DNA of 64,000 bases. Source: an uncultured Psychroserpens sp. GTDB taxonomy: Bacteria > Bacteroidota > Bacteroidia > Flavobacteriales > Flavobacteriaceae. Shown here piece by piece: positions 38,855 through 63,522 of this stretch; positions within the stretch are counted from its first letter, which is position 1, and each line of letters starts with the position of its first letter. The stretch spans positions 1,364,001 to 1,428,000 of the forward strand of contig NZ_CANLNS010000001.1 of NCBI RefSeq assembly GCF_947492715.1, read 5' to 3'. A program made the translations under genes and the position numbers. The notes beneath the pieces were generated by a model. The model searched no databases. It saw only the letters and a program-made list of their open reading frames with translations, and was not told the DNA's origin.

Positions 38855-40203
38855 TTAACGTCTTTGGAATTAAAAAGCTTTGTTTTGTCAAATTCGACTA
38901 GGTCTATAACATATAAACTTGATGATGCCTTTTTAGAATACTCGTTTAACAAATATCCACCAATGATATAAAGTTTATTTTGGTGATAATGCATTTTAGG
39001 CCGGTTGAGATCTAAATCAATTTTATAAGATTCTAAGACTTTGGTTTTTGTATTATAGTTAAGAAGTCGCCTATTATTAAATATGTAAATCATATGCTTA
39101 TGAACAGCTAAAGCAGGATATTCCATGGCGTTGAATAGGGAGCCTTCTGTATTCCATACTCCAGTTTTTATAGCAAAAGATTCAATAGTATTCAACTTTT
39201 TCCCATTACTACCACCAATTAGATATATAACATCATCAATGATGACACCCTGGGTTTCTTTTTTAATTGTCATTTTGGGAAGTTCATACCAATGCCCAGA
39301 GCTTATATTGTAAATGTGAGACGCATCGGTAAACATTTTTTTTCCTTTTTTATTTTTCGAAAAAGAACCGCCCATAACAATAATGTTATCGTTGTATGTA
39401 AATGATGCAAAGTTTATGGCTTGATGCGGATTGGTATGATCAATTGTAATTTGTCTGGAACCCATATCAAAGACTTCAATCTTATCATCCAAATATTCCT
39501 TTTTTCTATTTATAGATAATCGTTTCCCTCCCAAACTATAAAGTTCATTTCCGTAGCAATTGAGATTATGGTATGCTCGATTTCTAAATTTGGTTTCAGA
39601 AACAGACCAACTATTATCTTCGATATTATAGATTTGAAGCTTGTCTGTATAGTTTTCAAAAGAAAAATTTTGGTTCATCTCCTTTATAAGATCAGCAAAA
39701 CTACCTCTAGGTAAATTACTCACTGCTAATAGCGCTCTTTTTCCAGAATCTTCAATTTGCGATGAGTTTCCACTAATCACATATATGTTATTCCCTACAA
39801 CCTGAGAGTCAAATGCAAATACGCCTGTCTTTAGAGGTTTCAGCCTTTTAAAGTGTATTCTAGATTTTAATTTTTTAGATGAATTAATGACAACTTCATT
39901 AAGATTTTCTAGCTTTTTAGACAGATAAATCTTGTTATTTGTAGGTAACAACATTGTTAGTGCTATAGCCTTACTATGATAACCCATTAACGAGAATTCT
40001 AAGTAATCATTTTCGGTTGGGCGAGAATTTACTTTAATATTGAAAACTCCATTAGCATCCGAAACAGAACCAGTATTATATTTTTCGAAATAAACAGTTA
40101 CATTTTCAATAGGTTCATTAGTTTCAGAATCTAAAATTAGTCCACTGATATTTTGCGCAATAATCAACTGTGAAAAAATGAAGAATATCAATGTTAATCT
40201 CAT
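38851..40203 (-). CDS. Secreted protein with carboxypeptidase-like regulatory domain and kelch repeats
   Basis: A 450-residue exported protein starting MRLTLIFFIFSQLIIAQNIS; other possible starts at 40215 and 40224 only lengthen the n-region. Residues about 20-100 form a CarboxypepD_reg-like domain (GLILDSETNEPIENVTVYFE, VSDANGVFNIKV). Residues about 125-430 hold kelch blades with NNIYVISG, NELYSLGG, NIIVMGGSF, DVIYLIGGSNG and NKLYIIGGYLL, forming a beta-propeller. The function is unknown, perhaps binding or surface display. It is convergent with pheS. Confidence 0.85.
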   Translation of the reverse strand: MRLTLIFFIFSQLIIAQNISGLILDSETNEPIENVTVYFEKYNTGSVSDANGVFNIKVNSRPTENDYLEFSLMGYHSKAIALTMLLPTNNKIYLSKKLENLNEVVINSSKKLKSRIHFKRLKPLKTGVFAFDSQVVGNNIYVISGNSSQIEDSGKRALLAVSNLPRGSFADLIKEMNQNFSFENYTDKLQIYNIEDNSWSVSETKFRNRAYHNLNCYGNELYSLGGKRLSINRKKEYLDDKIEVFDMGSRQITIDHTNPHQAINFASFTYNDNIIVMGGSFSKNKKGKKMFTDASHIYNISSGHWYELPKMTIKKETQGVIIDDVIYLIGGSNGKKLNTIESFAIKTGVWNTEGSLFNAMEYPALAVHKHMIYIFNNRRLLNYNTKTKVLESYKIDLDLNRPKMHYHQNKLYIIGGYLLNEYSKKASSSLYVIDLVEFDKTKLFNSKDVN

Positions 40204-40277
40204 AAGGTTTATCATTTGTAACAATAATCTAAGTTCGATTATTTTTATGAGAGTATCAAAATCTTAACTTTATGTTT

Positions 40278-40285
40278 TAGTTTTG
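40278..40285 (+). promoter_or_regulatory. -7 box immediately before a start codon
   Basis: TAGTTTTG fits TAnnTTTG and ends only 4 bp before ATG 40290, so the transcript could begin at or near the start codon (leaderless). No clear -33 TTG. Confidence 0.35.
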
Positions 40286-40289
40286 CACC

Positions 40290-40685
40290 ATGAAAAAGGA
40301 CATTCATATCCCAAAAGTAGAAGATGTATTTGTTGCTGTAGTGCAAGAGCAACACCCAGAGTATAAAACCGATGATTGGAATGCTTATATCATCAATAAT
40401 AAAGACGTTGATCTTGATACGGTTTTAATTGTGTCTAAAGGCTACTCAGAAGACAAGGTTACTCCTGTGATGCGTCATACGATAAAACTCCTCCCAGCCA
40501 GAAGTTATGCTAAAATAGAGTTCATGCAAAACGATGTCTTGCAATTAAACAACGAGTTTAAAGTCACCTTCTTTGAAGGCAATGCGATGTTAGATAAAAC
40601 CTATTTGTTTAGAAAAAACACCATTAATACAAAGGCATTGCAAAGCATTCCGCTCATGCAATTAAAAGGTGTTTTGGTAAAGTGA
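40290..40685 (+). CDS. Conserved hypothetical protein
   Basis: A 131-residue soluble protein: MKKDIHIPKVEDVFVAVVQE, then WNAYIINNKDVDLDTVLIVS, MRHTIKLLPARSYAKIEF and LDKTYLFRKNTIN. It is probably a small beta-sandwich, and I know of close relatives in flavobacteria without assigned function; some are labelled as pheS-associated only by position. No signal peptide or membrane segment. It may be expressed from a leaderless message. Confidence 0.72.
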   Translation: MKKDIHIPKVEDVFVAVVQEQHPEYKTDDWNAYIINNKDVDLDTVLIVSKGYSEDKVTPVMRHTIKLLPARSYAKIEFMQNDVLQLNNEFKVTFFEGNAMLDKTYLFRKNTINTKALQSIPLMQLKGVLVK

Positions 40686-40691
40686 TGGTTT

Positions 40692-40709
40692 GTCATTGCG
40701 ACAGAATCT
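40692..40709 (+). repeat. Fragment of the palindromic repeat family
   Basis: GTCATTGCGACAGAATCT matches the right half (GTCATTCCGAC...GGAATCT) of the elements at 40763, 41174 and 41585 with part of the centre missing. Confidence 0.45.
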
Positions 40710-40762
40710 GAGCTGTTTTTAACGTAGTTACTGTTATAAAAACGTTGATTTTAAATTAACAA

Positions 40763-40844
40763 AGATTTCTCGACAAGCTCGAAATGACAATTGATTGTTA
40801 TTCACATGTGATGTATTGTCATTCCGACCAAAGTGGAGGAATCT
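40763..40844. repeat. Palindromic element, copy 1
   Basis: An 82-bp imperfect palindrome. Its ends are AGATTTCTCGAC and GGAGGAATCT; the inner arms are CGAAATGACAAT and ATTGTCATTCCG. It lies 5 bp from the stop of the first GIY-YIG gene. Copies 2 and 3 follow at exact 411-bp spacing. Confidence 0.9.
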
Positions 40845-40849
40845 ATCAT

Positions 40850-41158
40850 TTAGACAGTATCATTTAGAAATAACCATTCTGGATTATTCGAATTTATTAG
40901 AGTTTCTTTTTTGTTCCTATTCCACTTTTTTAATTGTTTCTCTCTTTTTATAGCATCTTCAACCTCAAAAAAATGCTCGAAGTAAATAAGATATTTGCAT
41001 TTGTATCTATGTGTAAATGATTTAGAATTCGAGGAAGGAGTATTATGATAATAAAGTCGATCACGAAGATTATTGGTCATTCCAATATATAATACAGTTC
41101 GATGCTTATTCGTTAAAATGTAGATGTAATAATTATGATTACCGATTAATTTCGCCAT
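40850..41158 (-). CDS. GIY-YIG endonuclease, tandem copy 1
   Basis: A 102-residue stand-alone GIY-YIG domain starting MAKLIGNHNYYIYILTNKHRT; a TTG at 41173 only adds five residues. YIYIL and LYIGMTNNLRDRL give the GIY-YIG pair with its Arg, and YLIYFEHFFEVEDAIKREKQ contains the conserved Glu. KWNRNKKETLI follows. It belongs to the short UPF0213-like group that is frequent in Bacteroidota. Both sides are bounded by palindromic elements, and copy 2 differs by one residue (His against Arg in TNKHRT). Role is unknown; the catalytic residues look intact. Confidence 0.88.
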   Translation of the reverse strand: MAKLIGNHNYYIYILTNKHRTVLYIGMTNNLRDRLYYHNTPSSNSKSFTHRYKCKYLIYFEHFFEVEDAIKREKQLKKWNRNKKETLINSNNPEWLFLNDTV

Positions 41159-41173
41159 GAAATAAATTAACAA

Positions 41174-41255
41174 AGGTTTCTCGACAAGCTCGAAATGACA
41201 ATTGATTGTTATTCACATGTGGTGTATTGTCATTCCGACCAAAGTGGAGGAATCT
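41174..41255. repeat. Palindromic element, copy 2
   Basis: Second copy, differing from copy 1 by two substitutions seen by eye (AGG for AGA near the left end and GGTGT for GATGT in the centre). It separates the two nuclease genes. Confidence 0.9.
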
Positions 41256-41260
41256 ATCAT

Positions 41261-41569
41261 TTAGACAGTATCATTTAGAAATAACCATTCTGGATTATTC
41301 GAATTTATTAGAGTTTCTTTTTTGTTCCTATTCCACTTTTTTAATTGTTTCTCTCTTTTTATAGCATCTTCAACCTCAAAAAAATGCTCGAAGTAAATAA
41401 GATATTTGCATTTGTATCTATGTGTAAATGATTTAGAATTCGAGGAAGGAGTATTATGATAATAAAGTCGATCACGAAGATTATTGGTCATTCCAATATA
41501 TAATACAGTTCGACGCTTATTCGTTAAAATGTAGATGTAATAATTATGATTACCGATTAATTTCGCCAT
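41261..41569 (-). CDS. GIY-YIG endonuclease, tandem copy 2
   Basis: A 102-residue near-identical copy of the gene at 40850, with TNKRRT in place of TNKHRT. It has the same start logic (ATG at 41569), the same catalytic set (YIYIL, LYIGMTNNLRDRL, Glu in FFEVEDAIKRE) and the same direct flanking by palindromic elements. The near-identity at exactly 411 bp spacing shows a recent tandem duplication of element plus gene. Confidence 0.88.
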   Translation of the reverse strand: MAKLIGNHNYYIYILTNKRRTVLYIGMTNNLRDRLYYHNTPSSNSKSFTHRYKCKYLIYFEHFFEVEDAIKREKQLKKWNRNKKETLINSNNPEWLFLNDTV

Positions 41570-41584
41570 GAAATAAATTAACAA

Positions 41585-41666
41585 AGATTTCTCGACAAGC
41601 TCGAAATGACAATTGATTGTTATTCACATGTGATGTATTGTCATTCCGACCAAAGTGGAGGAATCT
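41585..41666. repeat. Palindromic element, copy 3, overlapping the gpsA stop
   Basis: Third copy at +411 bp. Its terminal AATCT ends at 41666, inside the gpsA stop codon (41665-41667), so the last bases of gpsA are shared with the element. Confidence 0.88.
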
Positions 41667-42666
41667 AATCCAATTTTTCAGTCAGTTTCTTAAACACCTT
41701 TTTTGGGTTCTTATTCTCATACAAAATACTGTAAACGGCATTAATAATAGGTAAGCGCGTTTTCTTAACATTTTTGAGATTAAGCTCATGTGCACTCTTG
41801 GTGGCGTAATAGCCTTCGGCCACCATATTCATTTCCATTTGTGCAGACTTTACAGTATAACCTTTACCAATCATATTCCCAAACATACGATTACGAGAAA
41901 ATGTAGAATAGCCCGTTACTAACAAGTCACCTAGATAGGCCGAATTATTAATGTTACGCTTCATCTTATGCATCTTTTTAATAAAACGTTTCATCTCTCT
42001 AATAGCATTACTCATCAATACACTTTGGAAGTTATCACCATAACCTAAGCCATGTGCAATACCAGCAGCAATGGCATAAATATTTTTTAGCATGACTGCA
42101 TATTCGGTACCAATAATATCATCACTAATTTTTGTTCTAATATAGTTGCTAGATAAGGCATCGGCAATGGCCTGAGCTTTATCTGGATCTGCACAAGAAA
42201 TAGTTAAATAAGACAGACGCTCTAATGCGACTTCTTCGGCATGACAAGGTCCAGCAATTACTGCAATATTTTGGAATGGAATATTATAAATATCATGAAA
42301 ATGCTCGCCTACTAATAATCCAGATTCGGGCATTATTCCTTTTACTGCAGATACCACAGTTTTTTGTGAGATGTCTACCGTTAATTTTTGGAGTTCACCA
42401 TGAATAAAAGCAGACGGAATTACAAATATGAGCACATCTGCCCATGCAGCAATTTCATTAATATCATTACTAATTTTAAGCTGCTCGGTCTTAAACTCTA
42501 CAGAACTAAGGTAACTAGGGTTGTGCTGTTCTTTGAGTAAATGTTCTTTAGTATACACACTACGCATATACCAACCAATTTCATCTAGGTTTTCAGAAAG
42601 CATTTTTACAATGGCAGTGGCCCAACTTCCTGCACCAAAAACAGCATATTTTAATGGTTGACTCAT
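41665..42666 (-). CDS. gpsA: Glycerol-3-phosphate dehydrogenase [NAD(P)+]
   Basis: A 333-residue cytoplasmic enzyme starting MSQPLKYAVFGAGSWATAIV; the longer frame from 42732 adds 22 unlikely residues. The Rossmann motif is FGAGSWATA, followed by VIPSAFI, VSAVKGIMPESG and IAGPCHAEEVA. The catalytic Lys lies in AVMLKNIYAIAAGIAHGLGYGDN and the C-terminal motif is MVAEGYYATKSAHEL. It makes sn-glycerol-3-phosphate for phospholipid synthesis. Its stop codon overlaps a palindromic repeat. Confidence 0.95.
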   Translation of the reverse strand: MSQPLKYAVFGAGSWATAIVKMLSENLDEIGWYMRSVYTKEHLLKEQHNPSYLSSVEFKTEQLKISNDINEIAAWADVLIFVIPSAFIHGELQKLTVDISQKTVVSAVKGIMPESGLLVGEHFHDIYNIPFQNIAVIAGPCHAEEVALERLSYLTISCADPDKAQAIADALSSNYIRTKISDDIIGTEYAVMLKNIYAIAAGIAHGLGYGDNFQSVLMSNAIREMKRFIKKMHKMKRNINNSAYLGDLLVTGYSTFSRNRMFGNMIGKGYTVKSAQMEMNMVAEGYYATKSAHELNLKNVKKTRLPIINAVYSILYENKNPKKVFKKLTEKLD

Positions 42667-63442: not shown

Positions 63443-63522
63443 GGTCATTTCGACATGAGGAACAGAGTGATGATTGATAAATCTAGTCTTGAGATGTCTC
63501 AACTTCGTTCGACATGACAATT
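63443..63522. repeat. Diverged relative of the palindromic element, between serA and cupin genes
   Basis: One half (63492-63522) reads AGATGTCTCAACTTCG and then GACATGACAATT, close to the left half of the elements at 40763-41666. The other half begins GTCATTTCGACATGAGGAAC and ends AAATCT (63443-63484). There is no nuclease gene here. It overlaps the cupin stop. Confidence 0.6.

Follow-up and report, generated by a model that had tools for sequence, protein, structure and literature searches.

Which kind of genetic element is represented by two nearly identical GIY-YIG nuclease genes alternating with repeated DNA next to gpsA, and what might such a nuclease do for the repeats? In the window analysed here (the whole stretch of 64,000 nt), a 94-nt repeat occurs three times, at 40752, 41163 and 41574, with spacings of 411 and 411 nt, and two ORFs matching PF01541 above the Pfam cut-off (E 7e-16 and 1e-15) lie between the copies, so that the alternation of two genes with three repeat blocks at 411 bp, noticed in a preliminary description of the sequence, was borne out. 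Comparison of the window with itself returned repeats of ~300 nt with 99% identity, far above chance. Both genes lie on the minus strand and start with ATG; copy A (41261..41569) encodes 102 aa and copy B (40850..41158) a product that differs from it by one amino acid. The two tandem 411-bp units (40753..41163 and 41164..41574) differ in their alignment at three positions, 40765, 40811 and 41103, and are therefore not a single stretch merely assembled twice.

Each copy of the 94-nt repeat includes an 82-bp element that had been described as one palindrome. This block consists of two imperfect hairpins (25 and 26 nt), the GTC tags of which face each other over a 29-nt spacer, even if the whole block can alternatively be folded into a single long imperfect stem (z of −2.1 and −1.0 for two copies). 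The supposed palindrome is the junction of two adjoining units, and the real unit is hairpin-gene-hairpin, 382 bp in length, with the GTC tags outermost. Cassette A (41229..41610, minus strand) is bounded by a left (5′) CGTC-type REP hairpin on the minus strand (41586..41610, GTC tag at 41610) and a right (3′) REP hairpin on the plus strand (41229..41254, tag at 41229), both found by the hairpin detector. Cassette B (40818..41199, minus strand) has the same layout; its right hairpin (40818..40843, plus strand) was likewise detected, and its left hairpin (41175..41199, minus strand) was missed by the strict detector because one stem base is changed. The genes are separated from the hairpins by a leader of 16 nt on one side and by 6 nt after the gene, close to the 5–15 bp claimed previously.

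Read along the minus strand from gpsA, the order is the stop codon, a right-type hairpin (41640..41665, plus strand), the spacer (41611..41639, repeated at 41200–41228 and 40789–40817), a left-type hairpin, the leader and nuclease A; then 6 nt, a right-type hairpin, spacer, left hairpin, leader and nuclease B; and then again 6 nt, right hairpin, spacer, a left hairpin (40764..40788, minus strand) and a remnant of the leader, which extends to 40752. Beyond the remnant lie a gene-free stretch, a decayed right hairpin (40691..40709, plus strand) and the end of a 131-aa gene. The last left hairpin belongs to a truncated third cassette, of which the decayed hairpin is probably the right end. The hairpin adjoining gpsA overlaps the TAG stop codon (41665–41667) by one base, as had been observed. 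By contrast, the elements at 40692 and 63443 are not the solitary or decayed copies for which they had been taken: the former is probably the decayed end just mentioned, and the latter is a pair of hairpins with no gene between them (63443..63518), which belongs to a different stem class, has its tags outermost and was recovered by the strict detector in its right half only (63493–63518). There are three head-to-head hairpin pairs within the window. A search of the source genome with an 85-nt element returned the three full copies, a 33-nt partial match (E 5e-5) and a 21-nt match at chance level (E 0.31), and the repeat is not dispersed through that genome. Rfam gave no match above its threshold at 40200–42000, and PADLOC yielded weak matches to candidate systems alone (E 0.001 and 0.007).

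The 411-bp doubling is most simply accounted for by unequal recombination between the flanking direct copies, for which the nuclease is unnecessary. The entire locus could, in principle, be such an accident, an ordinary gene that lay by chance between repeats having been doubled by unequal recombination or through misassembly; the exact 411-bp period and the three differences fit recent recombination through the flanking direct copies, and Psychroserpens luteolus has one nuclease gene at this site. Nevertheless, we regard this as extremely unlikely, given that two non-identical units argue against plain assembly duplication, and that an accident accounts for the doubling but not for the bracketing of most related nucleases, the lineage-specific hairpins or the filled and empty sites at lpd described below. 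Simple tandem duplication was rejected as a full account. We favour, at a probability of roughly two in three, the reading that the locus is a tandem pair plus a truncated copy of a minimal mobile cassette, the nuclease of which would be the dedicated mobility enzyme of CGTC REPs. The cassette comprises one GIY-YIG gene of ~100 codons framed, at a distance of a few bases, by two REP hairpins in inverted orientation, the CGTC/TGTC tags of which lie at the outer ends.

According to the available text of the defining paper (Di Nocera, De Gregorio and Rocco, 2013; PMC3733652), CGTC REPs have a CGTC or TGTC tag, stems of 8–9 bp starting with AT and tails that are mostly CCA, form head-to-head dimers, have been reported from five phyla and include the Neisseria dRS3 repeats. 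The same text mentions no transposase genes flanked by CGTC units, save for a few fortuitous associations, and closes with the statement that these repeats ‘apparently lack a dedicated transposase’. As far as that text goes, the window hairpins resemble CGTC REPs in the tag (TGTC in the window), the AT-starting stem of 8–9 bp, the short unpaired tail, the dimers and the occurrence in several phyla, and differ in that the present flavobacterial class often has longer loops and that no dedicated enzyme was found for the published repeats. Judged by the tag, the covarying AT-starting stem of 8–9 bp and the head-to-head dimers seen in the window, the hairpins are CGTC-tagged REPs. Dispersal in many copies, a further trait of this kind of repeat, was observed in G128 (48 matches) but not in the source genome.

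The tag and the stem are both apparent in tests across nuclease loci. When inverted repeats were defined irrespective of any tag, GTC was the commonest trinucleotide flanking them near nuclease genes (176 of 1381 arms) and was rare far from these (41 of 3892), and GTCA beginning close into a stem was found in 390/703 cases near the genes versus 345/3455 far away. Among GTCA...TC segments collected with no stem required, variable opposite positions pair far above independence: in the 25-nt class, pair 5–23 is complementary in 38/42 (19.1 expected) and another in 37/42 (16.4 expected), and in the 24-nt class pair 9–18 in 28/32 (14.1 expected) and a further pair in 30/32 (17.0 expected), these sets comprising 42 and 32 distinct segments that are phylogenetically non-independent. 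Several stem pairs are nearly invariant and hence little informative, and the innermost pair of the 25-nt class does not pair. Interchangeable stems include ATTCC/GGAAT, ATTTC/GAAAT, ATGCT/AGCAT and ACCCT/AGGGT. The isolated hairpins of the window fold weakly (z of −0.2 and −1.8).

The nuclease retains Y24, G26, R34, E73 and N92, invariant in a 38-row alignment, which we take to be the active-site residues of the GIY-YIG nuclease, and the protein presumably cleaves DNA. With a dN/dS of 0.11–0.12 against its nearest relative (L041), the gene is, by this sequence measure, under strong purifying selection. The AlphaFold model is confident (pLDDT 92.7), and a Foldseek search with it identified UPF0213 as the closest structure (E 6e-4, the sole match below 0.001), followed by the structure-selective nuclease Slx1 (from 0.017) and UvrC (0.1). 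UPF0213 and Slx1, the latter acting with Slx4 in eukaryotes, are thus the closest solved folds, compared as structures alone and irrespective of hairpin context; the modelled fold naturally suggests a structure-selective nuclease that would work on hairpins. Such an enzyme might also serve the host, trimming REP hairpins or cruciforms as SbcCD does and being kept beside its substrate, and the affinity to UPF0213 and Slx1 as well as the purifying selection would be in keeping with this role. We nonetheless consider it very unlikely that housekeeping explains the locus, because the gene is patchily distributed, with relatives in 98 of the 199 sampled family genomes (E ≤ 1e-10) and in 13 of the 23 genus genomes (E ≤ 1e-8), counts of which the weakest matches may be of the UvrC type, as is the sole match of G204, a 598-aa UvrC-like frame. 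Several divergent copies per genome and presence or absence at orthologous sites likewise look selfish. In the named genome collection, relatives were drawn from the best 80 matches; 32 plasmid records contain distant relatives of the nuclease, and none was found in the phage records searched. At one locus of G174 (L241), three related nuclease matches, one with an internal stop, lie within ~7 kb, and two of these genes are 98% identical.

The association between gene and hairpin extends well beyond the window. In a motif-free test, based on the 223 of 229 merged hits that passed a coverage filter and were not duplicates, 217 of them with flanks of sufficient length, a repeat common to both 300-bp flanks (score ≥16) was found for 150/217 nuclease genes versus 1/498 control positions from the same loci. 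With the hairpin rule (GTC, a stem and C), applied to 216 genes after removal of L155, L166, L167 and genes with short flanks, a hairpin lies within 100 bp of 161/216 genes versus 17/501 control positions, and hairpins lie on both sides of 98/216 genes versus 0/501 controls. Either a hairpin or a shared flank repeat accompanies 187/216 genes, and neither was found at 29/216. The tags-outermost layout is seen in 57 of the 98 two-sided genes, where one quarter would be expected at random, and the remaining 41 have other layouts. Summed over both orientations, hairpin density within 50 bp of the gene is 8.2/kb upstream and 10.5/kb downstream, compared with ~0.2/kb beyond 800 bp and 1.03/kb in distant ORF-free DNA, which corresponds to an enrichment of ~8–10 fold over distant ORF-free DNA and ~35–50 fold over all distant DNA.

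Among 30 loci from records not named as Bacteroidota, 26 likewise have a hairpin within 160 bp, 17 of them on both sides; this set covers loci for 30 of the 59 listed matches, from 19 genomes named by record title, many of them metagenome bins, that were picked for a nuclease relative (and are thus not an independent draw) and not for hairpins. Some taxonomies place Ignavibacteria in Bacteroidota, and without the nine Ignavibacteria loci a hairpin accompanies 18/21. The survey shows the gene-hairpin association across many phyla. Accordingly, the element does occur with GIY-YIG genes elsewhere, and the earlier proposal that gene and element form a unit stands as regards the recurrent association (161/216 genes; 26/30 loci outside Bacteroidota) and the presence or absence at the same sites, the unit being, however, hairpin-gene-hairpin and not an 82-bp element plus gene.

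Two further observations concern individual records. In Sinorhizobium meliloti (L308), a GIY-YIG gene lies, as judged by eye, between two larger mosaic palindromic repeats that the CGTC detector missed. A Neisseria gonorrhoeae record (L310) contains an unannotated nuclease frame within a dense array of dRS3-like GTCATTCCCGC hairpins.

The CGTC REPs might alternatively be moved in trans by RAYT-like or other transposases, with the GIY-YIG gene as mere cargo. The flavobacterial hairpin pattern was found in 68 of 199 genomes and its reversed control in one; 53 of the pattern genomes have the nuclease (odds ratio 6.8) and 15 are devoid of a subfamily nuclease at E ≤ 1e-10. In these 15 hairpin-rich genomes the nuclease may have been lost, or the repeats may have been moved by something else, as the cargo explanation would have it, and there is indeed a weak correlation between the pattern and the presence of a Y1 transposase (odds ratio 2.2, p 0.015). 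However, the pattern occurs in 29/58 genomes with the nuclease only versus 5/22 with Y1 only, compared with 24/40 for both and 10/79 for neither. In addition, no CGTC hairpin was found within 100 bp of Y1 genes at 30 loci (5880 bp of flank; one lies at 121 bp), these loci representing, one per genome, 30 of the 62 genomes in which Y1 was matched, in agreement with the available text of PMC3733652. The source genome itself has no Y1_Tnp (PF01797) match at E ≤ 1e-5, and hairpin sequence follows the nuclease lineage, as detailed below. We therefore consider the cargo explanation quite improbable, and RAYT-driven spread was rejected as a full account. Hairpins serving only as terminators and integron-like arrays were also rejected by reasoning as full accounts. 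At eight loci of other GIY-YIG genes, taken from six of the 15 genomes with the flavobacterial pattern and no subfamily nuclease, there were no nearby hairpins apart from one stem of a tRNA copy.

Comparison across genomes was confined to sites whose outer flanks are unrelated, 382 of 23220 pairs being left out because theirs are related. Common flank repeats (score ≥18) were found there in 1.2% of 3006 pairs with nuclease identity below 0.4, rising to 9% of 3869 pairs at 0.50–0.55, 38% of 619 at 0.6–0.7, 69% of 284 at 0.7–0.8 and 86% of 37 above 0.8; distant-flank controls gave 0–4.5%. Within genomes, repeats are shared by 4/93 nuclease pairs below 0.6 identity and 0/6 at 0.6–0.7, and by 2/4 at 0.7–0.8 and 4/4 above 0.8. 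Mapped onto the nuclease tree, the hairpin classes (141 of the 161 genes with a hairpin belong to a class seen at least four times) require 46 changes versus 80–96 in 300 label shuffles, so that the histories of nuclease and element agree, a check that the preliminary description had proposed. Nuclease pairs from the same genome fall into the same hairpin class in 7/38 cases, which equals the random expectation. These sequence comparisons show that the repeat goes with the nuclease lineage and not with the genome, a nuclease lineage carrying its own hairpin sequence.

Comparison of orthologous sites revealed loci with and without the nuclease. Among 23 loci, the gpsA site holds two genes in the source genome (G000), one in G202 and none in the DNA available for the other 21, and in G217, the genome of which has no nuclease of this kind at E ≤ 1e-8, it holds a lone hairpin. 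At lpd, the cassette of G202 (404 bp) is bracketed by a 27-nt stretch that occurs in two copies (25/27 identical) and is non-REP DNA consisting of a terminator-like stem and a T-run; G217, identical to G202 over a 110-aa stretch of lpd, has the 27-nt stretch once and no cassette, as does G218. Gain in G202 is the likely direction, precise loss in G217 being of identical appearance. A nuclease is present at lpd in G202 and G209 only among the 23; that of G209 is 80% identical, its start lies ~10 nt farther away from the T-run and no right hairpin is evident beside it, and a single older insertion followed by several losses may therefore account for both. The lpd site is the sole clean filled/empty pair found, and at ridA no clean empty allele was seen in the 15 of 22 loci viewed, gene ends having been unlocated in 11 and gene order differing elsewhere.

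Direct repeats outside the tags (score ≥14) flank 9 of 65 cassettes, within 4 nt of the tags in five of the nine, compared with none among shuffled partners and one in same-locus inverted comparisons; some of these repeats are repeated array spacers. In G128, the repeat of one cassette has 48 matches, of which five are in its own array and the remainder are mostly short single hairpins on other contigs; a second nuclease was not located in that genome. Defined ends and presence or absence at orthologous sites were thus found, with a clean putative target duplication at lpd only, and mobility of hairpin-gene-hairpin as a unit is strongly indicated by these sequence patterns.

Freestanding GIY-YIG homing endonucleases are a known kind of enzyme, which raises the possibility that the nuclease cuts solitary REP hairpins at empty sites and that homologous recombination, with the hairpins as the shared sequence, then copies the cassette into them, with no transposition proper. 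The lone hairpin of G217 lies exactly where G202 and G000 hold cassettes, and hairpin density drops with distance from the nuclease, both consistent with homing. The lpd cassette, however, resides in the terminator-like stem and T-run between the 27-nt non-REP copies, an older REP near the site being present in both G202 and G217; these repeats of non-REP DNA speak for insertion, and a target duplication is not expected from homing, which we accordingly judge unlikely. The cassette shares with freestanding homing endonucleases the catalytic domain and a proposed selfish spread, and is distinguished from them by its hairpin ends, the repeated non-REP target DNA at one cassette and the lack of a single conserved target gene.

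Under the favoured reading, that of a mobile cassette with its own enzyme, the nuclease would recognise the hairpin in its folded state, whether in single-stranded DNA or in a cruciform, and nick close to the GTC tag. Copying or pasting into a nicked intergenic target might then follow, either of the whole cassette or of a hairpin by itself, repair of the staggered nicks leaving a target duplication, and the 411-bp tandem doubling would have arisen later through unequal recombination of the ordinary kind, involving the direct copies on either side of the gene.

The gpsA interval (40686–41667, up to the 131-aa gene) is a REP hotspot. G211 has there a different hairpin class (CATCCTGAACTCG...), as does G045, in which the tag is changed. 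A REP end overlaps the gpsA stop codon in the source genome, G202 and G217.

The closest architectural parallel is provided by REPtrons, in which a RAYT is associated with GTAG REPs and which, as described in the available text of PMC3733652, share with the cassette a single small nuclease gene set between tagged REP hairpins, repeats that are specific to lineages and solitary copies in genomes. The enzymes are unrelated (HUH/Y1 versus GIY-YIG) and the tags differ (GTAG versus CGTC, TGTC in the window); hence the cassette is not a REPtron, although its architecture is REPtron-like. By analogy, the nuclease would most likely play for CGTC REPs the part that the unrelated RAYTs play for GTAG REPs. 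A nuclease found recurrently between repeats whose mover was reported missing is therefore a strong candidate for the spreader of such repeats. The term ‘giy’ is absent from the available text of PMC3733652, a term search in the accessible text of a 2025 REP survey (PMC12306157) found no mention of GIY-YIG, and a GIY-YIG gene and a RAYT gene are named separately in the gene table of PMC9465073, as far as the available part goes. Full-text searches, covering few subscription journals and no bioRxiv preprints, returned no title or abstract opening that links GIY-YIG with CGTC REPs.

We further consider it slightly more likely than not that, throughout the bacteria, the dedicated enzymes hitherto missing for the CGTC REP superfamily are standalone GIY-YIG nucleases. 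Together they would form a class of hairpin-ended transposable elements of ~0.4 kb, with a single nuclease of ~100 residues that belongs to none of the usual transposase classes (DDE, HUH, serine and tyrosine). This broader reading would encompass Bacteroidota, Planctomycetota, Ignavibacteria, Elusimicrobia, Leptospiraceae, Pseudomonadota (including the Neisseria dRS3 type) and candidate phyla such as Peregrinibacteria and Kazan. If true, it would help to explain how families of intergenic repeats spread from phylum to phylum, and one more enzyme family would join those known to build mobile elements. Given a nuclease partner that recurs and matches the repeats by lineage, a single small protein and a short oligonucleotide suffice to test what moves CGTC REPs.

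A separate arrangement was noted among other GIY-YIG genes, which in L263 (G073), L252 (G012) and L249 (G135) occur as tandem copies adjoining tRNA genes and look like a second type of nuclease cassette, one using tRNA ends. In L263 and L252 the nuclease genes are interspersed with copies of the 3′ portion of the tRNA (three of 31–32 nt and one of 57 nt, respectively), whereas the repeated sequence in L249 comes from the tRNA 5′ end, as two pieces of 22 nt.
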